A stretch of DNA of 27,709 bases from a virus. The position numbers and the translations under genes are program-made. The stretch lies in the IMG/VR virus record IMGVR_UViG_3300003621_000014, positions 8,337 to 36,045 of that record; one strand, 5' to 3'. Shown here one piece after another: positions 437-16,426 of the stretch. The notes under the pieces are model-generated. The model did no database searches. It worked only from the letters and a program-made list of their open reading frames with translations, and was not told where the DNA came from. The number at the start of each line of letters is the position of its first letter. Positions within the stretch are counted from its first letter, which is position 1.

Positions 437-727
437 TTAAAAGTAATCTTCACTGTTTATATTCTTATCGTCGATAAAAATATCGTAAGGAGGTTTGCCG
501 AATTTCAATTCATGGTGTTTGACTCCCCATTCCTTAAATTGCTTCTTGGTTAGTTCCGAATGATCTATACCTGTTACGGAACCCCTTGCCGTCCAATAAA
601 CAATAGTGTTCCCTTCGTCGTATAATTTATTTATCTTTTTGATTCTGTCCATCATTGGGGTACTGGTTGTATAGTCGGTACTCCCTGTTTTAAATATAGT
701 ATTATCTATATCAACATATATTAACAT
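437..727 (-). CDS. Minimal HAD-superfamily phosphatase
   Basis: This is a 96-residue protein with three HAD signatures: the nucleophile motif DIDNT at residues 6-10 (D6 nucleophile, D8 acid/base), motif II YWTARG around 44-49, and the acidic motif DIFIDDK near 82-88. No cap domain fits in this length, so it is a bare Rossmann core, much shorter than GmhB (about 180 residues) or the sialate-9-phosphate phosphatase. Small HAD proteins of this kind occur in capsule and LPS gene clusters and in phages. Lying directly after neuB (11-nt gap) and before phoH, it may dephosphorylate a sugar phosphate made in the same cluster, but the substrate cannot be read from sequence. ATG at 727 is the only sensible start. 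Confidence 0.75.
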   Translation of the reverse strand: MLIYVDIDNTIFKTGSTDYTTSTPMMDRIKKINKLYDEGNTIVYWTARGSVTGIDHSELTKKQFKEWGVKHHELKFGKPPYDIFIDDKNINSEDYF

Positions 728-738
728 ATAAATTAATT

Positions 739-1578
739 TTATTTCCTTAAACTCTTCATTTTAGATAGTTCACCACCAAATAATTCTCTAGGACCTTCTG
801 GTATTGATAATGATTCTTCTATATCTCTAATACCTTTAACTAATTTAAATAAACCAGATGGTTCAATTGAAGCTGAATGATCGGATCCCCACATACCCCT
901 GTCTAGTGTTATGTGGCGTTCTACCCATTTTACGCCCATTGGTATAGCAGCGAAAGTGGTTACTAGCCCGTACTCATGTCCGCTATAACCTATTTCTTTT
1001 TCAGCGTAGTGGTTTTTTAACCATGTTATGTAATTTAAATTTAATTCGTTTACTGGACATGGATATGTTGAGTTTGTGTGCATTATAACGTCTGGGTTAC
1101 ACGCATCTATACATAAAGTAACCTCATCTTCATTACTCATACCTGTTGATATCATTAAGTAATCGGCCTTTTCTCTAGCATACTCACATAATTCAATATC
1201 GGTTATCAACGCCGATGGTATTTTCATAGCTACTCCTAGGTCACTTTCGTACTTCATCATAAAATCTACAGATGTTTTATCCCAAACGGATGCGAACCAG
1301 TTAATACCAATCTCTTTACAAAACCTATCTATTTCATCGTACTCAGCTTCACCGAACTCAGTTTTCCATTTATATTCTAAGTAAGTTATCTCACCCCAAG
1401 GAGTTTGTCTCATCTTACCTTTCTGTTCCTCTGGAACACATATGTCTGGGTTTCTTTTTTGAAACTTAACATAATCACAACCAGCAGCTTTAGCTACTAA
1501 TATTAATTGTTTTGCTATAGCTATATCCCCGTTATGGTTGATACCTATTTCACCTATAATCTTTGTCTTACTATTCAT
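739..1578 (-). CDS. neuB: NeuB-type nonulosonic (sialic) acid synthase lacking the SAF domain
   Basis: NeuB enzymes condense phosphoenolpyruvate with ManNAc or a related hexosamine to give Neu5Ac, legionaminic or pseudaminic acid. The 279 residues match the TIM-barrel domain throughout: GEIGINHNGD (9-18), DYVKFQKR (35-42), MKIPSALITD (118-127), MISTGMS (142-148), HTNSTYPCP (167-175), GYSGHE (197-202), ERHITLDR (220-227) and GSDHSASIEP (231-240). The protein stops at KMKSLRK, about where NeuB proteins enter the linker to the C-terminal SAF (antifreeze-like) domain, so the usual 60-70 residue SAF domain is absent. The gene sits 3 nt after the FkbM gene in the same operon as a NeuA-like enzyme and two sialyltransferase-like proteins. 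The family call is firm; which nine-carbon sugar is made is not known. Confidence 0.9.
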   Translation of the reverse strand: MNSKTKIIGEIGINHNGDIAIAKQLILVAKAAGCDYVKFQKRNPDICVPEEQKGKMRQTPWGEITYLEYKWKTEFGEAEYDEIDRFCKEIGINWFASVWDKTSVDFMMKYESDLGVAMKIPSALITDIELCEYAREKADYLMISTGMSNEDEVTLCIDACNPDVIMHTNSTYPCPVNELNLNYITWLKNHYAEKEIGYSGHEYGLVTTFAAIPMGVKWVERHITLDRGMWGSDHSASIEPSGLFKLVKGIRDIEESLSIPEGPRELFGGELSKMKSLRK

Positions 1579-1581
1579 AAT

Positions 1582-2217
1582 TTACTTTTGTTTATAATAT
1601 TTTTTATTTAACATAATATAGTCATTCTGTTTGACGTTAATTGCTGTTGATTTAAATATAGGAAAAAATCCTTTACTGTAAAGGTATTCCATAACTTTAG
1701 GTTCTAAAGTTTGTCCTGTGAAATATTCAACCTCCTCAGTTTCAATTTGTAGTATTTTTATATCCTCTAAAATACCACCAAAACTTTTTAAGGCTTCTAA
1801 TGTAGCTCCTTCAACATCTATTTTAACGAGGTCGGGTATATCTAAGGATTTTTCTGTTATGTACGTGTCCATCCTTTTACATTTTAACTCAACTAACCGT
1901 TCTTTAGTTTTTGATAAATTTTGTTCAAAAATACTATGTATACCATTTTGTTCTTTTTCGTAAAAATGTGTTACCCCATCGTAATCTCTTATTACGAAAT
2001 TTTCAAAACTAACTTTTTCGGTATCTTTACCTAGTAGGAATTTTTTGTAATTGTTGGGTAAACCTTCGAACCCTATAACTTTAGCGTCAAATAATTCTGA
2101 TAGAAGGAAGCTGTCAACTCCGTTTAAACACCCTACGTCATAAATTAATTTTATTTTTGATATATCCAAATTTTCATTTAGTACATCTTTCATTGTTTCC
2201 ATGTTTAATCTAGCCAT
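1582..2217 (-). CDS. FkbM-family SAM-dependent methyltransferase
   Basis: This 211-residue protein has a SAM-binding motif I, IYDVGCLNGV (25-34), an acidic motif II-like FEGLPNN (50-56), and the FkbM hallmark VKIDVEGATLEAL (131-143). FkbM enzymes O-methylate hydroxyl groups on sugars or small molecules and are frequent in LPS, capsule and phage glycan loci. The ATG at 2217 overlaps the end of the upstream GT4-like gene by 13 nt, so the two are probably translationally coupled. By position it likely methylates a sugar of the glycan built by the neighbouring transferases, but acceptor and position are inference. Confidence 0.85.
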   Translation of the reverse strand: MARLNMETMKDVLNENLDISKIKLIYDVGCLNGVDSFLLSELFDAKVIGFEGLPNNYKKFLLGKDTEKVSFENFVIRDYDGVTHFYEKEQNGIHSIFEQNLSKTKERLVELKCKRMDTYITEKSLDIPDLVKIDVEGATLEALKSFGGILEDIKILQIETEEVEYFTGQTLEPKVMEYLYSKGFFPIFKSTAINVKQNDYIMLNKKYYKQK

Positions 2218-3056
2218 TTTTCGTATATTTTAATGTATTCATTTGCGATAGTTTCTGGGTCCCAATGGTTCTCCATCCATAATCTACTTTCGTAACCTTT
2301 ATCAATTATTTTATTTAAACCAGATTCTATTAAATTAATTAATTCTATTTCTAAGTTTTGGTGATACGTGTTAATAAAAGGGTTTGTTTTAGCGTTTGAC
2401 GACCTTAGTAAAACTTCTTCTACTTCCTTACTAACAGAACATATGGTTGTTATACCCATGGCCATTGATTCGAGGCCTGATCTGTGATACGAATCGGTCT
2501 TAACTTCATCTATAAATATATTACACTCAGATTTTCTTTTGAGACATTCTTCTAGTGGCACCCCAGTAATCACCTCTATCTCCACTTTATCTTTATATAT
2601 TTTTTTTATTTTATTTAGGATTGGTATAGTTTCTTTGTAACCCTTATCAGCCCATTTAGACGAGGGTGTTGTTGAAGATGGTGAATATCCTATTCTAATT
2701 ACTTTGTTTTGATATTTGGGGATGTATTTAACATCAAATAAATCTACTGGGTTTCTTACCACTCTACAATGTCTATATTCGGGTAAGGTGGCATGATATT
2801 GGGCTATTACTAGTTTTGGTATATCAACATTTAATTCAACTCTAAAAGGTTCACTGTGGTATTGTATAATACTTTTCTTGGTAGTATAGAACTTCTTGTT
2901 GTGTTGGTGTACTATATCTGAATTAGGTATAATTAATTTACCTGGGTAAGAATAACCAACAACATATGATTTATGTTCGGTATATTTGTTTATAACCTCA
3001 CTTATAGCTTCTGGTGCCTCGGCTATGTTGGTGTGTTTAGTATGTGTTACTATCAT
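2205..3056 (-). CDS. GT-B fold glycosyltransferase (GT4-like)
   Basis: This 283-residue cytoplasmic protein has no membrane segment. The C-terminal half looks like a GT4 nucleotide-sugar domain: a beta strand with IRIGYSPSSTT near 120-130, a lysine/aspartate helix, EVITGVPLEECL, and then SYHRSGLESMAMG (189-201), which corresponds to the donor-binding EX7E region of GT4 enzymes. The N-terminal half is short (about 115 residues against 170-200 usually), with a histidine-rich stretch (IVHQHNKK). The ATG at 3056 overlaps the upstream GT29-like gene by 20 nt. The GT-B/GT4 assignment is by pattern; donor and acceptor are unknown. It probably adds a sugar to the same glycan that receives the nonulosonic acid. 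Confidence 0.7.
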   Translation of the reverse strand: MIVTHTKHTNIAEAPEAISEVINKYTEHKSYVVGYSYPGKLIIPNSDIVHQHNKKFYTTKKSIIQYHSEPFRVELNVDIPKLVIAQYHATLPEYRHCRVVRNPVDLFDVKYIPKYQNKVIRIGYSPSSTTPSSKWADKGYKETIPILNKIKKIYKDKVEIEVITGVPLEECLKRKSECNIFIDEVKTDSYHRSGLESMAMGITTICSVSKEVEEVLLRSSNAKTNPFINTYHQNLEIELINLIESGLNKIIDKGYESRLWMENHWDPETIANEYIKIYEKWLD

Positions 3057-4020
3057 AAAAAGTTATTATATTATTTTTTTTATCATACTCAAAAGCCATA
3101 CTCATTATTTCTAATTTCTCTTTCTTATAATTATGTACTTTAGATATCTCGTACTCTAAACCTTTATCTGTCCTTAATAAACTATTTTCACCACCGTCAT
3201 AGAAGTTAAATCCTATTAGGTCTATCTTTTTAAACCCACCTAGGTGTAATAATAACTTTAGCATGGTATACCCGCTAGTGCTTGGTTGTTCGTCTGTTTT
3301 CATACTATTATGATCATTATGGTGGTTATACTTAAGTATTAACCCCTGATGAACCTTGTTTAAACCTTTAACCTTATTGATCCAGTTAGTGAGGTTATTT
3401 GATATGATAAATCTTATAGGTACGTATTTATCTAGATTTTCGTCTTGTAGGTATACGCTAACATGTATTGTAGTTTTAGACCCAGTATATACTTCGTTTA
3501 ATTTAAATGAGTTGAATCTTACGACAATATCATTAGAGTCAATAATATCACCATTTTCTTTTTTAAGTAAGTCTGATGAGTTAGCAACTAATATTATAGT
3601 CTTATTTTTTATCATCCTCTTTAAATTATCTAAAGATAATAAAGAGCGTTTTTTTAAAAATTGGTTTAATAATCTGTCAATGGTTTCGTCATATAATTCT
3701 TGATTAGACTTATCATTGTTTTTTGTTTTAGTTCCTTTAATAGTGGTGAGTGTAGGTTCAGAAACATTTTTTTGTTCTGTTTTTACAACCCCTTTCTTTA
3801 AGTCAACATTTTTTTGTTCTGTTTTTACAACCCCTTTCTTTAAGTCAACATTTTTAGTTTTATTCACTTTAAGACCTTTTTTAGGGTTGTTAGCTGTTAC
3901 TATTTCAACCACGTTTTCTAAGACCTCATCGACCTGAGAATTAATTTTAATTCTTTGTTTCTGGTTACTCTTAGTAACTATTGATTTACCCTTATTTTTT
4001 TTCTTTGCGAAGTAACCCAT
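3037..4020 (-). CDS. GT29-type sialyltransferase with repeat-containing basic N-terminal region
   Basis: Residues 140-327 carry the sialylmotif pattern of family GT29. A motif-L-like segment IILVANSSDLLKKENG is followed by IDSNDIVVRFNSF (about 142-172). A motif-S-like segment begins at PSTSGYTMLKLL (246-257) and ends at IDLIGFNFYD. A motif-VS-like H296xxxxE301 follows. GT29 enzymes move sialic acid from CMP-sialate to a glycan acceptor. Residues 1-110 are lysine-rich with no signal peptide and contain two exact copies of a 14-residue unit (57-70 and 71-84) from a 42-bp tandem DNA repeat. The frame is open upstream to a TTG at 4041, but I use the ATG at 4020, giving 327 residues. The CDS overlaps neuA by 29 nt. 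Sialyl transfer is inferred from motifs and from the neighbouring neuA and neuB. Confidence 0.75.
   Translation of the reverse strand: MGYFAKKKNKGKSIVTKSNQKQRIKINSQVDEVLENVVEIVTANNPKKGLKVNKTKNVDLKKGVVKTEQKNVDLKKGVVKTEQKNVSEPTLTTIKGTKTKNNDKSNQELYDETIDRLLNQFLKKRSLLSLDNLKRMIKNKTIILVANSSDLLKKENGDIIDSNDIVVRFNSFKLNEVYTGSKTTIHVSVYLQDENLDKYVPIRFIISNNLTNWINKVKGLNKVHQGLILKYNHHNDHNSMKTDEQPSTSGYTMLKLLLHLGGFKKIDLIGFNFYDGGENSLLRTDKGLEYEISKVHNYKKEKLEIMSMAFEYDKKNNIITFYDSNTY
3763..3846 (-). repeat. Perfect 42-bp tandem duplication inside the GT29-type gene
   Basis: Two identical 42-bp units lie at 3763-3804 and 3805-3846, followed by the first 9 bases of a third. The period is a multiple of three, so each unit encodes the same 14 residues (NVDLKKGVVKTEQK) and the frame is kept. 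The lack of any difference between copies points to a recent duplication by slippage in the linker/stalk part of the protein, where length variation would be tolerated. Confidence 0.95.
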
Positions 4021-4642
4021 CAAAATCTTTTTTAGTGTCAACGTCTATAACATCGTATATTTTAAAGAAATATGTATCATCATTATATAAATTATTGTTT
4101 AGTTTACCTAATTCACTAACCTTAAATATAGATATGTAATGAGATATTTCAAATATTTCTGGGTAGTCTTGTCTCCTGTATAGATTATGTTTAACTAACT
4201 GTCTACCTTTGTTGTTACCTGCGTTTAACATATATAAATATGGGTGTACACCTTTAAAATCCTTTTTACACAACAAACTTTTTTCTTTATTATCTAAAAA
4301 TAATTTATAGACATTTTTAACCTCTTTAAAAGTTCTTTCTGGGTAAGTTAGGTATAGCATTATAACCACATCGTCGTAATTTAAATCACCGTTTTTAACT
4401 AGGTATTCAATGACTTCTTTTGTGCTGGTTGTGTCAATGGCTAACTCATCTGGTCTAATAGAAACTTTTAAACCCATTAATTCACATTTTTCGATCAATA
4501 CTTCATCATCTGTTGATACAATTATGTATTTGTGGTATTTTTTAGGTATACTATCAACTGTTTCGTTAAAAAGTAACCTATTTTTAAAAGGTAAGCCTTT
4601 TGAGTTTCTTCTGGCTGGTATTAATATTTTAAGTTTATCCAT
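3992..4642 (-). CDS. neuA: CMP-nonulosonate (acylneuraminate) cytidylyltransferase
   Basis: NeuA-type enzymes activate a nonulosonic acid with CTP, giving the CMP-sugar donor. The 216-residue protein starts with the nucleotide-binding motif IPARRNSKGLPFKN (about 8-21; family form IPARGGSKGIPxKN). It continues with VSTDDEVLIEKCELMG, then RPDELAIDTTSTKEV, and ends with a metal-site-like IDVDTKKDF. The length matches the 220-230 residues usual for bacterial CMP-sialate synthetases. The frame is open to a GTG at 4663, but the ATG at 4642 places the core motif at the usual distance and overlaps the upstream stop (4635-4637) by 8 nt, typical of this operon. It lies between the two GT29-type genes, so donor synthesis and transfer are encoded side by side. 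Confidence 0.87.
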   Translation of the reverse strand: MDKLKILIPARRNSKGLPFKNRLLFNETVDSIPKKYHKYIIVSTDDEVLIEKCELMGLKVSIRPDELAIDTTSTKEVIEYLVKNGDLNYDDVVIMLYLTYPERTFKEVKNVYKLFLDNKEKSLLCKKDFKGVHPYLYMLNAGNNKGRQLVKHNLYRRQDYPEIFEISHYISIFKVSELGKLNNNLYNDDTYFFKIYDVIDVDTKKDFDGLLRKEKK

Positions 4643-5168
4643 TATATAATAATTTAACTTCACCTTTATTAATGAGATTGTTGACCAAAGCCTTTTCTAA
4701 GTCTGGTCTATGACCTATCATTTTATTATCGTCTTTATAGTAATGAACTCCATTCTCAAAGAAATCAAAACCATGTATTTTGACATTATAACCTTTTTCT
4801 ATAAAATAGTATATCATCACTAATCCAGTAGTGGCCCATAGGTTACCAGCGTCTAACAATTTATTTACCTTGTTGTAGAATTTTACAGGGATCACATTAA
4901 ACCCATCATTAACTAAAATCTTCTTCTCTTCTTCGGTACATCTTATGATGTTTGGGTAAACGTAGAATTTACTTTTGAAGTTTTTGGTTATATGTTTAGA
5001 TGACATTTTAGTCTTGACCCATACGTCTGTTTTGGTACCAACGTGTTTTTCGTAACCTTTTGTCTCGAAGTCATTGAACCTAATAACTGTTTCATGAGAG
5101 TCTATTAGTTCACCCAATTCTTTATCTAAACAAGACGGACCATTACCTATCAATAAAACTTCTTTCAT
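4635..5168 (-). CDS. Compact GT29-type sialyltransferase
   Basis: This is a 177-residue protein with all three sialylmotif-like segments in the right order: VLLIGNGPSCLDKELG then IDSHETVIRFNDF (L, 4-34), WATTGLVMIYYF to VKIHGFDFFE (S, 111-138), and H153xxxxE158 (VS). It is essentially only the catalytic core, far shorter than animal GT29 enzymes (300-400 residues), with no transmembrane anchor, so it would act in the cytoplasm. It is clearly related in pattern to the larger GT29-type protein two genes downstream but not a recent duplicate. It overlaps the GT2 gene by 4 nt and neuA by 8 nt. The family match is good; its use of CMP-nonulosonate is inferred from context. Confidence 0.75.
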   Translation of the reverse strand: MKEVLLIGNGPSCLDKELGELIDSHETVIRFNDFETKGYEKHVGTKTDVWVKTKMSSKHITKNFKSKFYVYPNIIRCTEEEKKILVNDGFNVIPVKFYNKVNKLLDAGNLWATTGLVMIYYFIEKGYNVKIHGFDFFENGVHYYKDDNKMIGHRPDLEKALVNNLINKGEVKLLYNG

Positions 5169-8772: not shown

Positions 8773-9519
8773 TTATTTGGGTGTTACTACCCCTCTTCTA
8801 CTTACGACGTTGGAAGCGTTTTCATTAGCTTTTATTATAGCTTCTGAAATATCTGAGGTTATATAGTAGGTAGTTATGAATGAAGCGGTAAAAGTATCAC
8901 CAGCACCGCTTACGTCTATGGTTTCTTGAGGGTTTAGTGATGGGTATAATTTACTACCATGTCTAGCACCTTTAGATCCTAGTGTTACTATAATACCGTT
9001 ATGTGTTAAATGTTTATTGTTACCATATTCTGATTCATTCAATTTTATAAACGTATAACTATTTATAATATCATTATTTAATTTACGCTTAGAATCTAAT
9101 ATAGATAACTCACTTAACTCTCCTATTCTTTTTACATCAGAATCCTTTAAAAAACCTTTGTTGTAATCACTTACAACGACTATATCAGCCTGTTTTATAG
9201 ATTCTATGATATCGTTAGTCCATTCTATAGGTGTTAAACTGTCCTCACCTTTATCTACCCTTAAGAACATATGGTTAGATTTATTCTCGATATAACGTGT
9301 TTTAGTTATATTTTCAGTTTGTATCACTGAAGTAATCTGAGAGTTTGGTAATATAGACTTTAAATTTGTTGTTGTGTTACCAGACATACCTCTATTTTTA
9401 ACAGTTTTTATTGGGTTTAAAACTGGTACTGGGGCTTCTGGTGATAATCTATCCGATTTACAATAAATAAACTCGTCAGTGCAACTCTCACCTATAACTA
9501 GAATTCTAATCTTATTCAT
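8773..9519 (-). CDS. PfkB-family sugar kinase resembling the HldE (RfaE) kinase domain
   Basis: At 248 residues this matches the kinase half of HldE, which phosphorylates heptose 7-phosphate at O-1. Landmarks are LVIGESCTDEF (7-17), LSPEAPVPV (25-33, highly characteristic of RfaE/HldE), FLRVDKGE (85-92), VVSDYNKG (115-122), NESE (161-164) and DVSGAGDTF (202-210) with the catalytic Asp208 and GAGD anion hole. It is about 60 residues shorter than bacterial HldE domain I, with losses in the middle, and there is no cytidylyl/adenylyltransferase domain. It probably phosphorylates a sugar for the glycan block, but the exact substrate is inference. It starts 30 nt after the Omp28-like gene, with no terminator between them. 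Confidence 0.8.
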   Translation of the reverse strand: MNKIRILVIGESCTDEFIYCKSDRLSPEAPVPVLNPIKTVKNRGMSGNTTTNLKSILPNSQITSVIQTENITKTRYIENKSNHMFLRVDKGEDSLTPIEWTNDIIESIKQADIVVVSDYNKGFLKDSDVKRIGELSELSILDSKRKLNNDIINSYTFIKLNESEYGNNKHLTHNGIIVTLGSKGARHGSKLYPSLNPQETIDVSGAGDTFTASFITTYYITSDISEAIIKANENASNVVSRRGVVTPK

Positions 9520-9549: not shown

Positions 9550-10320
9550 TTATTTAGTGAATGCGTTGACAAATTGTAACCCCCAAGGTTCTTGTTTGTA
9601 GATCACTAATCCGAAAGAAATATCTTTTGTTTTCCAGGAAACATCTTTTTTTACTGTAAAGTCTAGGTTAATTGTGTGGCCTCTTTCAGCACCATTTGTT
9701 GTTAATTGGTACCCAAAGTTTTCTACTGAACTAACCGTTGTTGGTTTTGCGACTCTAGCAACATAGTTGTGATGAACTGTGTTGTTCCCGTCAACATGCC
9801 CATTTTGGTAACCAACGATGTTGTCAACTATCATGTATGGGGCTATATAGTACACACCTTCCACATTAGCAAAAAACTTTGTTGTGGTTTTTAACAACAC
9901 ATTTTGACCTGATACTTCCATGTCGTAATTAGCGCTAGCAACAACGTAATCAGATTCAACGTGCTTCGTAATCACTGAATCATCAGCGTTTGGAATAAAA
10001 TTGTAAAAAAATGTTGGTACTGAACCCCCTAAGTTAAAAGTTGGTCCTACTTCATCAAACAAAGTTGAACCTTCGGTAGTTGTAAAGGCGTCTTTCCAAG
10101 CCATAAATAGGGCTTTTCCTTTGTAAGTTTCTTTCAATGTTTCAAATTGAGGAAACCCCCAACTTCCACAAGGCCCGCACCAAGTTGCAGTTCTCTTTCC
10201 GATAACAGCCATGTTTGCTTCTGTTACTTCCAATGTGTTTTCTGATTCTTCCATTGGTGATGTTTTTCGACAAGCGAATAGTGCTGTTGTGATTAACAGG
10301 CTTAAGATTATTTGTTTCAT
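9550..10320 (-). CDS. Omp28-like thioredoxin-fold lipoprotein
   Basis: This is a 256-residue exported protein. The N-terminus MKQIILSLLITTALFAC is a lipoprotein signal peptide with Cys17 as the lipidated residue, followed by an acidic linker. A thioredoxin-like active site ATWCGPCG (45-52, Cys48/Cys51) precedes FETLKETYKGKALFMAW, and the rest is a beta-rich domain (about 130-256). This is the layout of Omp28-family lipoproteins of Bacteroidota. It would be anchored in the cell envelope of the infected host and might act in disulfide exchange, envelope modification or superinfection exclusion; none of these is shown. A strong terminator lies just upstream (10357-10394), so it needs its own promoter. 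Parts of the gene (around 9770-9840) look richer in G+C than its neighbours, suggesting host origin. Confidence 0.8.
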   Translation of the reverse strand: MKQIILSLLITTALFACRKTSPMEESENTLEVTEANMAVIGKRTATWCGPCGSWGFPQFETLKETYKGKALFMAWKDAFTTTEGSTLFDEVGPTFNLGGSVPTFFYNFIPNADDSVITKHVESDYVVASANYDMEVSGQNVLLKTTTKFFANVEGVYYIAPYMIVDNIVGYQNGHVDGNNTVHHNYVARVAKPTTVSSVENFGYQLTTNGAERGHTINLDFTVKKDVSWKTKDISFGLVIYKQEPWGLQFVNAFTK

Positions 10321-10333
10321 AGTTAGTAGATTT

Positions 10334-10373
10334 ATTGCAATATAGTGAATTTAATTAAAAACCCAATTAATAT
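10334..10373 (-). promoter_or_regulatory. Weak candidate promoter for the Omp28-like gene
   Basis: On the minus strand ATTG is separated by 19 nt from TATATTGC, which approximates the Bacteroidota TTTG-N19-TAnnTTTG class with one mismatch in the first box and two in the second. It lies inside and just downstream of the hairpin terminator and ends about 15 nt before the ATG at 10320. The match is weak, but the gene must have some promoter in this gap unless it relies on read-through. Confidence 0.25.
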
Positions 10374-10394
10374 ATTGCATTTAATTGGGTTTTT
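10357..10394 (-). terminator. Rho-independent terminator, probably bidirectional
   Basis: A perfect 14-bp inverted repeat (AAAAACCCAATTAA at 10357-10370 and its complement at 10381-10394) encloses a 10-nt loop. Read leftwards, the stem ends GGGTTTTTAATT, giving a U-rich tail. It lies 6 nt beyond the stop of the DUF397-like gene and ends transcription of the 13280-10401 gene group before the Omp28-like gene. Confidence 0.85.
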
Positions 10395-10400
10395 GAGTTT

Positions 10401-10592
10401 TTAACTTTCTTGTTTGTTGGTGGTTATATCGTCGAACTTACCCGACTTGGCCGCCTCAACAAAATCAGAAAACTGTGATTTAGTCCATGTGGTTATACCT
10501 TCTGGACCTTCTTTATCGCCAAGTACTATCGTGGATTCTTTCACCTCTATTACTGGACAACATTTGTTTTTACAAAATTTTATTACAGACAT
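10401..10592 (-). CDS. Small DUF397-like protein
   Basis: This 63-residue soluble protein has the pattern CPVIEVKESTIVLGDKEGPE, then a Trp/Thr segment (TTWTKSQFSDFVEAAKSGKFD). This resembles DUF397, whose members read roughly 'C-VEV-...-VRDSKDP-GP-L-F---EW-AFL-GVK-GEFD'. DUF397 is mostly known from Actinobacteria, often next to regulators, and has no established biochemical role. Two closely spaced cysteines (Cys11, Cys12) follow Cys7. It starts 1 nt after the stop of the holin-like gene and is the last gene before the strong terminator. The match is by eye over about 45 residues, so the family name is tentative; the gene itself is well supported. Confidence 0.55.
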   Translation of the reverse strand: MSVIKFCKNKCCPVIEVKESTIVLGDKEGPEGITTWTKSQFSDFVEAAKSGKFDDITTNKQES

Positions 10593-10786: not shown

Positions 10787-11383
10787 TTATTTATTTTTAT
10801 TATTCTCTTTTAATGACATTAATTTACCACCAAAAGTCTTTTCACCTATTTTTATTTGTATAGTCTCATCAATAGACGTATTTTTACTCATCTTGTCTAT
10901 CGTTTCTTCAACAGTTTTTTTTATGATATATTCTATCAAATTAGTGTCCATAACTGGAGCTTTAGATTCTACTACAACCTCTTTAGTTATTTCGGGTCCT
11001 GTTGATTGATATACGTTATTGTAACTGTTTTGAGTCTCGTTAACCTTACTTACAACGTTGTCTAAACCAACTGGTACTGTTGGGTCGTTAATAGGGTTGT
11101 TTAAGAAAGATTCTAATATTTCTTTAGGCATTTTAGATGACTCTAGGTTTTTCATAGTCTTTTTAGGTCCAGTGTTCTTAGACGCTACCCTTGCTTTCAT
11201 TTCAGCCTCAGATATGTACTCTGGTTCCCTTTCATTATAGTTAGGTTGTGGTGGGTATGATGTGCTAATACCATTATTTGTGTTTTGGTTGCTATTAGAG
11301 ATACCACCTTCTACTTTCTGCATTACTTTTCTTGCGTTAGCTATACCTTGAGCTAATTTATTCGCTTTTTCTTCACTATTCAT
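10787..11383 (-). CDS. Unrecognised phage protein, partly disordered
   Basis: I do not recognise this 198-residue protein. It has an N-terminal helix (MNSEEKANKLAQGIANARKV), then a low-complexity part rich in Asn, Pro and Tyr (about 28-56), a helical middle with many Lys and Glu, and a compact C-terminal segment (about 147-198) with TNLIEYIIKKTVEETIDKM and a short beta-like IQIKIGEKTFGGKLMSL. There is no signal or membrane segment. It overlaps the WYL-like gene by 8 nt. In large phages, groups of such short genes between the polymerase and a holin often encode assembly or minor virion proteins, but nothing in the sequence decides this. Confidence 0.7.
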   Translation of the reverse strand: MNSEEKANKLAQGIANARKVMQKVEGGISNSNQNTNNGISTSYPPQPNYNEREPEYISEAEMKARVASKNTGPKKTMKNLESSKMPKEILESFLNNPINDPTVPVGLDNVVSKVNETQNSYNNVYQSTGPEITKEVVVESKAPVMDTNLIEYIIKKTVEETIDKMSKNTSIDETIQIKIGEKTFGGKLMSLKENNKNK

Positions 11384-11924
11384 ATGTACTATATATCCAT
11401 TTTAGAAAACCAGAGCTGTAAGATTCATTAATAGTTAAATCGACATTTTCTCCTTCTTCATTTTTATTTACCATTTCTGGTTCTTTATAATTGGGATCTT
11501 TAGGTCCAGCTGGTTTATTAACATCTAAATAATTTATAGACTTATCATTAGCCATCTTTTTGTCTGATCCATCCGTTTTGTAATCGCTTTTAGGTTCGAA
11601 AGTTTTTAGATTCTTACCCGTGTTATCATACATCACTTTAATCGTATTATCTTTAATTTCATCAACAATGAAAGTTTTCCATTTTTGGTTTTCTGTGTTA
11701 GTCACACCTGTAGTTTGGTAGGCCCTAAGCATCCATTTACCAGTACCCTTACTTTTACCTAGTGCTACTGGTTGTACGCGTCTATAGTTTTGTTTAGTGT
11801 ACTTTTTATTGTCAGGGTCACTAACTTTAACACCTCTGTACCAGAACGAAACCTCGTATTTATTTTCAATTGCGTATCTAATAACATCTAACTTATCATC
11901 ACCGATATTTTCAATTATAAGCAT
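11376..11924 (-). CDS. WYL-like domain protein
   Basis: This is a 182-residue protein. Residues 10-110 resemble a WYL (Sm-fold) domain: VIRYAIENKYEVSFWYRG (14-31), YRRVQPVALGKSKGTGKWML (48-67), RAYQTTGVTN, and KTFIVDEIKDNTI (83-95). This copies the order 'AIxxxxxVxIxYRG ... RxVxPxxL ... WYLxAYD ... RxFxLDRI' of WYL domains, which bind ligands or nucleic acid and often sit in transcription regulators and phage-defence proteins. Here there is no helix-turn-helix; the C-terminal 75 residues are polar and probably disordered, ending in an aromatic GFLKWIYSTYE. It could be a stand-alone sensor or a structural protein that reuses the fold. It lies in a group of small late-type genes. Confidence 0.6.
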   Translation of the reverse strand: MLIIENIGDDKLDVIRYAIENKYEVSFWYRGVKVSDPDNKKYTKQNYRRVQPVALGKSKGTGKWMLRAYQTTGVTNTENQKWKTFIVDEIKDNTIKVMYDNTGKNLKTFEPKSDYKTDGSDKKMANDKSINYLDVNKPAGPKDPNYKEPEMVNKNEEGENVDLTINESYSSGFLKWIYSTYE

Positions 11925-13324: not shown

Positions 13325-16300
13325 TCACACTGGAATTTCTTCTTCGAAACCAGGTATTTTAAATATTATATCATCATTAAACCAAAAATCAGGTTCATAT
13401 GATAGTTTATTCCAGAACTCTTTTTCTGTTGGTGATGGGGTGTAAAACTCTAATAAGGTATCTTGGTCACCTATATCGTTAGGTTGATTATTCAACAATT
13501 TTAATTCCGACCTTAGGAACATTTTCTTGTCTTCTGGTTTATTTATCAATATATCACCCCTAACATTTAAAGAGTACGAAACTAATAATGGTTTTATTTT
13601 CTTGTTAAAAGCGTCTAGATATTTAGGTACGTTATATTCACCTATCTCATTAGGTTTGTTTTCTATTATATCCATAGGTACTAAAGAAGCATACATTTCA
13701 CCTTCTTTATTATATTGCGAATCACCGTGAGACTTTACCTTACCATTATTTACATAATATATTGTATCACCTAAGTTAACATCTAAGTTATTTATAACCG
13801 CTAATTCCATATGAGCCTGTTTAGGTAGGTCTCTACCATTTTTATCAGTGCCTCTATTTTTATAATCCTCAATACTCTTCTTAACTCTTGATTTAGTTGC
13901 TATCATAGCTAATGGTATTTCTTTGTTATATATCTTTTCAGCATATTCATGATAATAACTAACAAATTCATAACCCTTATTCTCTAACAACATTTTAATC
14001 CCTTTTTTAAGGAATTCTTCTATATACATAGGTAGTTTTTTGGATTTAATACTGTTACCAGTTAAACTAATACTACCATCATATTCTAGGAGAGCATAAT
14101 TTTTTCTAGATAGGTTTATAGTTGATGGCCATACCCCATCTAAACTCAACCCCATTTCTTTACGCATATATAAGTCGTTGAATTCCGCAACCGTAGCGTC
14201 TACACCAGTGTACTCTCTGCCTTTTTCAACGCTGTTACTTAAACCTTTACCTATATAAATAAAATCTTCACCACTCTCTGGCGCTGTGAAGTTTACACCA
14301 TCGGTATCTAATACTGAAGGGTCGTAACCTTTCTTTATAAAGAATTTAACTAATAATCTAAGGTATTGCCTAGCTGTACATGTTATTTGCTCACTAACAT
14401 CTATCTCAGCCCATTGAAAGGCTAGAGGAGCACCCAGGGCACCGAACATTGAGTTTATAAATATCTTAAGTGGTAGTTGTTTTCTTTTGTATTTATCCGC
14501 TAATTGATAGTTACCCTCTTTTTTATACTTACTGGCTAGGTTTTTAGCTTTAAACCTCTCTGTGTGAAAGTATTTTAACATGGATTTCATAGCCCCATTA
14601 ACATCAGAACTAGGGAATATATCGTGAGCTAATTGTATGGCTGGGTATAATGAGTCGTAATCCATTTTCCTTAATTCTTCAGAATAACCGACCTTAAAAA
14701 GTCTAGATAACCCACCAGTAAAACTACGTCTCTCTTCTGGGGTTGGTACGGCTAAACCATTCTCGAAGGAATAGGTCATCATTAAAAGCTTCCATAACCC
14801 AGCGGTACCCATTGTGGATACTCTTTGGTAAGTTGTTGGTACTAGCTTAGCTAATAAAAATGAAGACTGGTTGTAAACCTCATCTACTTCCATGGTTTCC
14901 CATAAATCATCAATAAGATATCTCTCAACAATATATTTACCATCAACAGGTTTTATTGTTTCTATGTAAGAACGCAACGCTTTTAGCGTTTGTATTAAAA
15001 AGTTGTAGGTATTAGGTGCTCTTAATTGTAGTTGAGAAGAATCTGTACCTATACCACTTTTAGGGAAATTAACTTTCTTACCCTCATCAATAAATCTGAT
15101 TATCTCCTTGATACCCTTATTTATTTTAACTTTATTATCCTCTAATTCTAGGTCGTTAAAGAATGAATCATCGGTATTACCTGGTTTTTTCTTAGTAAGG
15201 ATAGGTATTGCGTTGCTTTCGCCACGCATCTCTTTAGATTGTTCACCAAAACCTTCTAAAGACTCATTCTCACTATAAACAAATATCTCTTCTGGGTTTG
15301 ATTGTACGTACTCTCTTGTTATGTTATCGATAAAATCTATGGAACCTTTAGCTTTGTTGTAGGTACCGTTCCTGTCATTAAAATAAAAAGTATCTTTTGA
15401 ATACCACGTATCACCTATTTTATCACCAGTGATATAAACACGATTTTTCTTATTTATTTTATTGTATTTACAAACGTATTTAAGACCTGCTGACTTCATA
15501 CTGGAATCGATAGCTTGAGCTCTTCTGGCTGAGTGTATAATGTCTATAATACTATAACCAAACATATTAGTTTGTTCGAAATGTTCGACTTCACTACCTA
15601 GTTTAAGCATTCCTGATCTATTATTGATTAACTCACCTTTCTTAAGGGTGATTGCTATTTTTTCTATATCTAACCCTAGTATTTCACATCTTTTAAAGAA
15701 AAATGGCCAGTCAAAGTTAGCACTATTGTATCCCGCTATAATAGCTGGTTTTATTTCGTTTATTTTATCAAAGAATTTTATGATACCTTGTCTTTCTGAC
15801 TCGTCATTGTCTTCGATTGGTATTATTTCTTCCACACCTTTATTTGTGTACATACCAATCATAAATATCCTACTATAACTAGGGTCTAAACCAGTTGTTT
15901 CTAAATCGAATACTAGTTTGTGTATTTCAGAATATTCATCGAAACCCTTAAAAAGTCGTTTACCAGTATGTATTAAATATTGTTCTACTGGTGATATCAT
16001 TAAGAAATTAGATCTTATATCATTTCTTTTATCATAAACATATAAACCACCTTCTTTAAAGAACTGTAACATTCTTTGGTGTCCCTGAGTACAGGTTAGT
16101 AAATACCTATAACCTTCAATTAATTTAGGGTGATTACTGTGTTCTAACGATTTTATTTCTATACCGAATTTTTCTCTAGCAGATCTTATCCTAGCATCGC
16201 TATTACCGTAGAAGTTTATTAATTCCTTAACTTTGTTAAGGTTTTTAATCCACATAAAAGCGAGTAGAGGCTCCTTTTCGGTATAGAGGCCTTTTTCTGG

Positions 16301-16426
16301 ATGCTGTTTTATTTTGTGAATAAGATTTGTTTCTTTGTCGTATTCTATATTAACAATATACTTCTCATCATCATGTCCATTTAAAAACTTTTCTATTTGA
16401 TCTAAAGGTATCTTGTATCCAGCCAT
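13325..16426 (-). CDS. Family B DNA polymerase with 3'-5' exonuclease
   Basis: This is the replicative polymerase of the phage (functional counterpart of T4 gp43), 1033 residues. Exonuclease motifs: ExoI VFDLETTG (172-179, Asp174/Glu176), ExoII AGYNSANFDWP (231-241, Asp239) and a probable ExoIII Y503xxxD507. Polymerase motifs: A MDYDSLYPAIQL (588-599, Asp589), B LKIFINSMFGALG (653-665) and C LDTDGVNF (706-713, Asp707/Asp709). Motif C has DTDG instead of DTDS, and motif A ends SLYPA instead of SLYPS. ExoII and ExoIII are about 265 residues apart, against about 105 in T4, so an extra domain or long insertion lies around 330-490. The A-to-B spacing is short (about 65). The gene has its own promoter just upstream. 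Confidence 0.95.
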   Translation of the reverse strand: MAGYKIPLDQIEKFLNGHDDEKYIVNIEYDKETNLIHKIKQHPEKGLYTEKEPLLAFMWIKNLNKVKELINFYGNSDARIRSAREKFGIEIKSLEHSNHPKLIEGYRYLLTCTQGHQRMLQFFKEGGLYVYDKRNDIRSNFLMISPVEQYLIHTGKRLFKGFDEYSEIHKLVFDLETTGLDPSYSRIFMIGMYTNKGVEEIIPIEDNDESERQGIIKFFDKINEIKPAIIAGYNSANFDWPFFFKRCEILGLDIEKIAITLKKGELINNRSGMLKLGSEVEHFEQTNMFGYSIIDIIHSARRAQAIDSSMKSAGLKYVCKYNKINKKNRVYITGDKIGDTWYSKDTFYFNDRNGTYNKAKGSIDFIDNITREYVQSNPEEIFVYSENESLEGFGEQSKEMRGESNAIPILTKKKPGNTDDSFFNDLELEDNKVKINKGIKEIIRFIDEGKKVNFPKSGIGTDSSQLQLRAPNTYNFLIQTLKALRSYIETIKPVDGKYIVERYLIDDLWETMEVDEVYNQSSFLLAKLVPTTYQRVSTMGTAGLWKLLMMTYSFENGLAVPTPEERRSFTGGLSRLFKVGYSEELRKMDYDSLYPAIQLAHDIFPSSDVNGAMKSMLKYFHTERFKAKNLASKYKKEGNYQLADKYKRKQLPLKIFINSMFGALGAPLAFQWAEIDVSEQITCTARQYLRLLVKFFIKKGYDPSVLDTDGVNFTAPESGEDFIYIGKGLSNSVEKGREYTGVDATVAEFNDLYMRKEMGLSLDGVWPSTINLSRKNYALLEYDGSISLTGNSIKSKKLPMYIEEFLKKGIKMLLENKGYEFVSYYHEYAEKIYNKEIPLAMIATKSRVKKSIEDYKNRGTDKNGRDLPKQAHMELAVINNLDVNLGDTIYYVNNGKVKSHGDSQYNKEGEMYASLVPMDIIENKPNEIGEYNVPKYLDAFNKKIKPLLVSYSLNVRGDILINKPEDKKMFLRSELKLLNNQPNDIGDQDTLLEFYTPSPTEKEFWNKLSYEPDFWFNDDIIFKIPGFEEEIPV

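Follow-up and report, generated by a model that had tools for sequence, protein, structure and literature searches.

The window, which is the whole stretch of 27,709 nucleotides that was analysed and comes from a virus record of 36,045 bases, carries a gene for a predicted thioredoxin-like lipoprotein that was almost certainly captured from a host chromosome. In the simplest reading of the sequence, a hairpin and a promoter-like box arrived together with the gene, and this host segment appears to have replaced the terminator and promoter that related phages have at the same site.

Sequence features of the lipoprotein gene

The original prediction covered positions 9550–10394, which correspond to the gene plus the hairpin. 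The CGPC protein and the perfect 14-bp hairpin in front of it were confirmed at 9550–10320 (minus strand) and 10357–10394, respectively (Table 1). Landmarks of the 256-aa ORF are MKQIILSLLITTALFAC, followed by RKTS, and TATWCGPCGSWG, and the motif WCGPC is present. The hydrophobic N-terminus ends with LFA immediately before C17 (MKQIILSLLITTALFA followed by C17), as read from the sequence only. The proposal that the protein is an exported lipoprotein agrees with the invariance of the putative lipobox cysteine among 18 aligned family members, across which Cys48 and Cys51 of the CxxC motif were also invariant.

Table 1. Positions of the gene, its predicted parts, and the flanking elements in the window
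Feature	Position	Strand	Basis
Thioredoxin-like lipoprotein gene (HBP35/Omp28-like), 256 aa	9550..10320	-	ORF, alignment, model
Predicted signal peptide, residues 1–16	10273..10320	-	Sequence
Predicted lipobox Cys17 codon	10270..10272	-	Cys invariant in 18 aligned family members
CGPC redox motif, residues 48–51	10168..10179	-	Sequence, alignment
Thioredoxin-fold domain, about residues 38–125	9946..10209	-	AlphaFold2 model, structure match
C-terminal beta-sandwich, about residues 126–256, HBP35- and Omp28-domain-like	9553..9945	-	AlphaFold2 model, structure match
Left neighbour, 63 aa, kept in phage relatives; left edge of empty site	10401..10592	-	
Right neighbour, PfkB-like kinase; right edge of empty site; own TAnnTTTG box missing in window	8773..9519	-	
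Perfect 14-bp hairpin, terminator of upstream unit; resembles host hairpin, not the terminator of phage relatives	10357..10394	-	
TATATTGC box, promoter-like (inferred); kept in the two nearest host copies; two mismatches from TAnnTTTG	10337..10344	-	
Segment with blastn-level DNA similarity to host chromosomes, 77.9–78.7%	9550..10373	-	blastn

Host orthologues of the phage gene

When the three phage copies were aligned and used to query 84,980 species genomes, two chromosomal orthologues were recovered, L009 in the Crocinitomicaceae MAG Ww488 and L010 in the Flavobacteriales MAG QJ.25, with 87% and 85% protein identity, respectively. Both chromosomes had the order polA, a small conserved gene, the orthologue, an outer-membrane barrel gene (3959–4735 in L009), a DEAD helicase gene, and tdk. 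Three other genomes contained more distant orthologues, likewise immediately before a PF13568 barrel gene, so that an outer-membrane beta-barrel gene of the PF13568 family directly followed the orthologue in 5/5 closest chromosomes examined. The phage copy shares with its chromosomal orthologues the protein sequence (85–87% identical) and a similar 5′ flank, whereas it precedes the PfkB kinase gene instead of a barrel gene. The hosts also carry distant paralogues with approximately 24–30% identity (L016 and L018 in one genome, L017, L023, and L024), two of which are arranged in tandem in one genome.

The phylogeny against host proteins, which had been proposed as a check, nested the window copy with L009 and L010. 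The support values of this cluster were 98/97, and a further analysis gave 92/96 for protein and 96/97 for DNA, without separating the two host copies by their closeness to the window copy. The blastn similarity to L009/L010 extended from the stop codon through the gene to 10368/10373, about 50 nt past the start codon. Downstream of the stop codon, no similarity above chance to the host or to the empty site was found. A stretch common to the window and the phage locus L041 in this downstream region, TTTTTATTAT, was indistinguishable from shuffled sequences and was discarded.

DNA upstream of the gene

The hairpin arms (10357–10370 and 10381–10394) are 14 nt each, 100% complementary, and separated by a 10-nt loop. 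The 80-nt upstream flank was similar to that of L010 with a z of 7.3 (0/1000 dinucleotide shuffles) and to that of L009 with a z of 3.3 (6/1000). The outer part of this flank, which contains the hairpin, was by itself above chance against L010 (z 4.4, 1/1000) but not against L009 (z 0.4), and the comparison of the same stretch with the empty sites of phage relatives gave z values of −0.7 to 2.5. At the corresponding position, both hosts have a hairpin whose loop, GCAATA, is related, and their copies of the gene are preceded by a (T/A)ATATTGC-type box. Because the similarity to host DNA extends about 50 nt upstream into the hairpin, the hairpin and the box resemble the terminator and promoter of the donor itself. 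The left boundary of the transferred DNA carries an uncertainty of about 30 nt.

The original prediction regarded the gene as a moron that stands behind a terminator and is transcribed separately. The hairpin was borne out; the phage design was not, and the hairpin and promoter-like DNA instead match the upstream region of the donor host. TAnnTTTG is the flavobacterial −7 consensus (PMC6847099). A sigma-70 promoter scan detected nothing above shuffled sequences, the Bacteroidota promoter type being outside its scope. An imperfect inverted repeat (10330–10344 and 10371–10385) was also observed, in which the hairpin loop (GCAATAT) pairs with the promoter-like box (ATATTGC). It was recognisable in L009 and L010 too and may serve as an operator or allow the RNA to pair in an alternative way.

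The empty site in related phages

We compared 28 loci related by DNA polymerase (53–100%), among which L040 belongs to the window phage itself. In 20 syntenic loci, several of which are near-duplicates, the lipoprotein gene was absent and the order of polymerase, gene 10401, and the kinase or the glycosyltransferase gene was kept (L041–L049, L051, L052, L054, L056–L061, L065, and L066). L050, L053, L055, and L062 end before the site, and L063, L064, and L067 differ in gene order. No copy of the gene was found anywhere in 31 records from two phage groups by the same kind of search that detects the known carriers. The idea of an extra, moron-like acquired gene was thus upheld by its absence from all close relatives examined. 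On the same absence from these relatives, a virion component was rejected, and the gene did not turn out to be ubiquitous in related phages.

The empty sites checked contained a hairpin with a T run after gene 10401, and a TAnnTTTG box was located 12 nt before the kinase ATG in 7/8 of them. The window has neither this phage-type terminator nor the kinase TAnnTTTG box. Because these elements of the empty sites are missing in the window, a host segment containing terminator, promoter, and gene appears, from the sequence comparison, to have replaced the phage terminator/promoter segment. No hairpin was found within the 30-nt gap between the lipoprotein gene and the kinase gene. With no terminator between the genes and the promoter-like box of the block itself missing here, the suggested read-through into the kinase/glycosyltransferase block is possible.

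The gene shares with phage morons and host-derived auxiliary genes that it is an extra gene absent from relatives, and the hairpin and promoter-like box in front of it may correspond to the terminator and promoter of a moron. Unlike in phage morons, the putative regulatory DNA matches that of the donor gene, and no sign of lysogeny was found in the records of these phages.

Carrier phages

Among the products encoded in the window are a family B DNA polymerase and a T4-type tail sheath, and the carrier is a virulent-looking myovirus. Judging solely from the donor of the lipoprotein gene, the phage would infect Crocinitomicaceae-like Flavobacteriales. Lysogenic conversion, to which the gene layout had been compared, is not supported: a search for PF00589 integrases was negative in eight records from these groups (up to 206 kb and possibly incomplete) and positive in 14/14 control genomes.

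Scans of IMG/VR identified the window phage (L001), L003, and L004 as the only carriers. The window and L001 records were identical over 16.7 kb and may not be independent; like all phage sequences used here, both are metagenomic. A tblastn search with the lipoprotein gave no match in 50,697 phage records, and this collection yielded no member of the envelope thioredoxin lipoprotein family. An Omp28 family search of the phage's own record also gave no match, but its controls were likewise silent, so it was set aside, and a search of part of the literature found no report of phage Omp28 or phage thioredoxin lipoproteins.

Other genes of the window were also noted. The region 437–5168 (minus strand) contains much of what is needed to synthesise and transfer a sialic-acid-like sugar, including NeuB (739–1578), a cytidylyltransferase (3992–4663), and matches to glycosyltransferase family 29 (sialyltransferase) at 3037–4041 and 4635–5168. 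Some phage relatives also have NeuB and the cytidylyltransferase. A WYL-like domain protein, possibly a regulator, is encoded at 11376–11924 (minus strand) with a sub-threshold E of 4e-4 and 29–79% conservation in the relatives. The family B DNA polymerase (13325–16426, minus strand) contains an internal DUF7831 domain at residues 365–479 (E 6e-31).

The gene in a second phage lineage

The copies of L003 (257 aa, 66%) and L004 (256 aa, 61%) are located on phage contigs with different gene neighbourhoods and have no host upstream DNA. Relatives of L003 (e.g. L103, L114, L107, and L115) keep the order RNaseHII, membrane protein, and p8782, and the gene is absent from them. This lineage is distantly related to the window phage: comparison of the window sheath with five long relatives of the L003/L004 group gave a distant match in 3/5 (26–29% over about 190 residues) and none in 2/5.

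The L003 and L004 copies formed their own clade (100/99). A model with one capture behind all three phage copies was weakly rejected, with AU p values of 0.084 for protein and 0.036 for DNA. Because of this weak rejection and the different insertion sites, two separate captures, one in the window lineage and the other in the L003/L004 lineage, are probable. The presence of the same gene in a second, distantly related lineage suggests a benefit of the protein for phages.

Six adjacent proteins of L003 (plus strand; 10813, 11456, 12041, 12382, 13282, and 13831) were found to have related N-termini (MKHIKLFEQFINE and variants). These recall the capsid-targeting peptides of T4 internal proteins.

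Base composition, codon usage, and selection

The different base composition that had been suspected was evident in a comparison with the neighbouring genes. The lipoprotein gene had the highest GC content of 23 minus-strand genes (37.9%, against 26.9–37.0% for the others) and the least phage-like codon usage among them, between that of phage and host. The dN/dS of the window copy against L009/L010 was 0.042–0.068, and that between the two hosts was 0.076; these values are rough because dS is near saturation. The ratios point to purifying selection on the lipoprotein, which may partly reflect the time spent in the host genome. Composition and selection fit a functional gene some time after transfer.

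Predicted structure and family

Sequence profiles assigned the phage protein poorly. Pfam gave a sub-threshold thioredoxin match only (E 0.0024), PHROGs gave no match, and neither of the Omp28 profiles, PF11551 and NF033782, was matched. PF11551 was matched by 12/18 family members, with a best value of 1e-12. The AlphaFold2 model built from the 18-row alignment (pLDDT 84.6) comprised a thioredoxin fold (residues 38–125) and a beta-sandwich (residues 126–256). The best solved structural match was HBP35 of P. gingivalis (5y1a; Z 20.1, rmsd 2.7, 210 residues, 19% identity), followed by 2axo (Z 14.0). The C-terminal domain matched the Omp28 domain 2r2c (Z 8.8, 109 residues, rmsd 2.6), and matches in a viral structure library were weak and unspecific. 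In the description of the protein as an Omp28-like thioredoxin, the CxxC thioredoxin fold held; the Omp28 part did not hold for the profiles of the phage protein itself and is retained through its relatives and the C-terminal fold.

Like HBP35, an exported envelope protein, the phage protein has a CxxC thioredoxin domain followed by a beta-sandwich. HBP35 is secreted as a type IX cargo and has a C-terminal signal domain at residues 287–344 (PMC11285876), which lies outside the aligned 5y1a range (12–248). Unlike HBP35, the phage protein ends at the beta-sandwich without a type IX signal domain and has a lipobox, so that a predicted lipid anchor stands where HBP35 has this domain. The protein shares with the Omp28 family the predicted lipoprotein character and the fold of the C-terminal domain; it differs in that it matches neither Omp28 profile and has a clear CxxC thioredoxin half.

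Proposed function and alternative explanations

The explanation that we favour overall, with moderate confidence, is that a captured gene for a host envelope oxidoreductase would be expressed during infection and its product would maintain envelope proteins. By sequence comparison, the captured unit appears to comprise the coding sequence and about 50–75 nt of upstream DNA with the donor's hairpin terminator and promoter-like box, and to have displaced the phage terminator/promoter segment between gene 10401–10592 and the PfkB kinase gene. The protein would be an exported lipoprotein with its lipid at Cys17, anchored in the envelope and most likely in the outer membrane. From its fold, motif, and conservation, it is predicted to act as a thiol-disulfide oxidoreductase of the HBP35/Omp28 kind. 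During infection, the phage copy would top up the host's own copy, so that the disulfide bonds of the host barrel or of other envelope proteins would stay correct during the shut-off of host synthesis. The downstream kinase, dUTPase, and glycan genes would fall behind a host-type promoter.

HBP35 is a known thioredoxin that reduces insulin via its CxxC motif; it also complements E. coli dsbA and has hemin-binding activity (PMC2907840). Because the closest structure has these reducing and dsbA-complementing activities, an envelope thiol oxidoreductase is the best reading of the model, and we regard this role as probable. Since HBP35 also binds hemin, the function that matters could, by analogy, be one other than redox chemistry. 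The weak thioredoxin similarity by sequence, the two mismatches of the box from TAnnTTTG, and the L003/L004 copies without host upstream DNA also count against the favoured explanation. The benefit to the phage through envelope-protein maintenance is proposed tentatively, in preference to exclusion at a receptor, its chief rival.

In this chief rival, which we consider unlikely, a lipoprotein made early would bind, in the outer membrane, the barrel encoded beside the host twin or another receptor and block adsorption of further phages. Phage T5 Llp, which acts on FhuA, offers a comparison. The predicted lipoprotein signal, the barrel gene adjoining the host twin in all five chromosomes, and the sporadic presence in two phage groups, as for an arms-race gene, are consistent with such a blocker. 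However, the protein and its two redox cysteines are under strong purifying selection, as suits a host-like enzyme better than a blocker, and the host already makes the protein, so that a plain copy would add dosage only.

It is rather improbable that the gene is a passenger, i.e. host DNA that was caught by chance, has not yet been lost, and has no effect on the phage. Its restriction to a single phage population in its lineage (the identical window and L001 records) and a codon usage still between host and phage would be expected of such DNA, but the frame is intact, with its DNA about 78% identical to that of the closest known hosts, dN/dS is low, the codons are partly ameliorated, and a second capture probably occurred in another phage lineage at another site.

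Selection on the promoter rather than the protein is less probable still. A host cassette would then drive the downstream kinase, glycosyltransferase, and dUTPase genes, in line with the missing phage-type terminator and kinase box (the latter present in 7/8 empty sites) and the lack of a terminator before the kinase gene, but this would leave unexplained both the L003/L004 copies without host upstream DNA and the conservation of the protein. An assembly artefact joining host DNA to phage contigs is very improbable: the records are metagenome-derived, but conserved phage neighbours flank the cassette on both sides in syntenic order, codon usage is intermediate, and the two records, possibly from related samples and of unproven independence, are identical across it.

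Implications

Host-derived extra genes are common in phages, and the donor lineage, the transferred segment, and the empty site are rarely all visible together. Here, all three can be compared, including a likely swap of phage for host terminator and promoter. It is a speculative and rather improbable extension that distantly related virulent Flavobacteriales phages repeatedly capture this same host outer-envelope thioredoxin lipoprotein because control of the disulfides of one outer-membrane barrel, the product of the gene next to it in the host, is a general point of contest, with the phage copy tuning that barrel, a possible receptor, to finish the infection or to exclude competitors. If the second lineage represents a separate capture, the redox state of the outer envelope would become a testable point of phage–host conflict in Bacteroidota.
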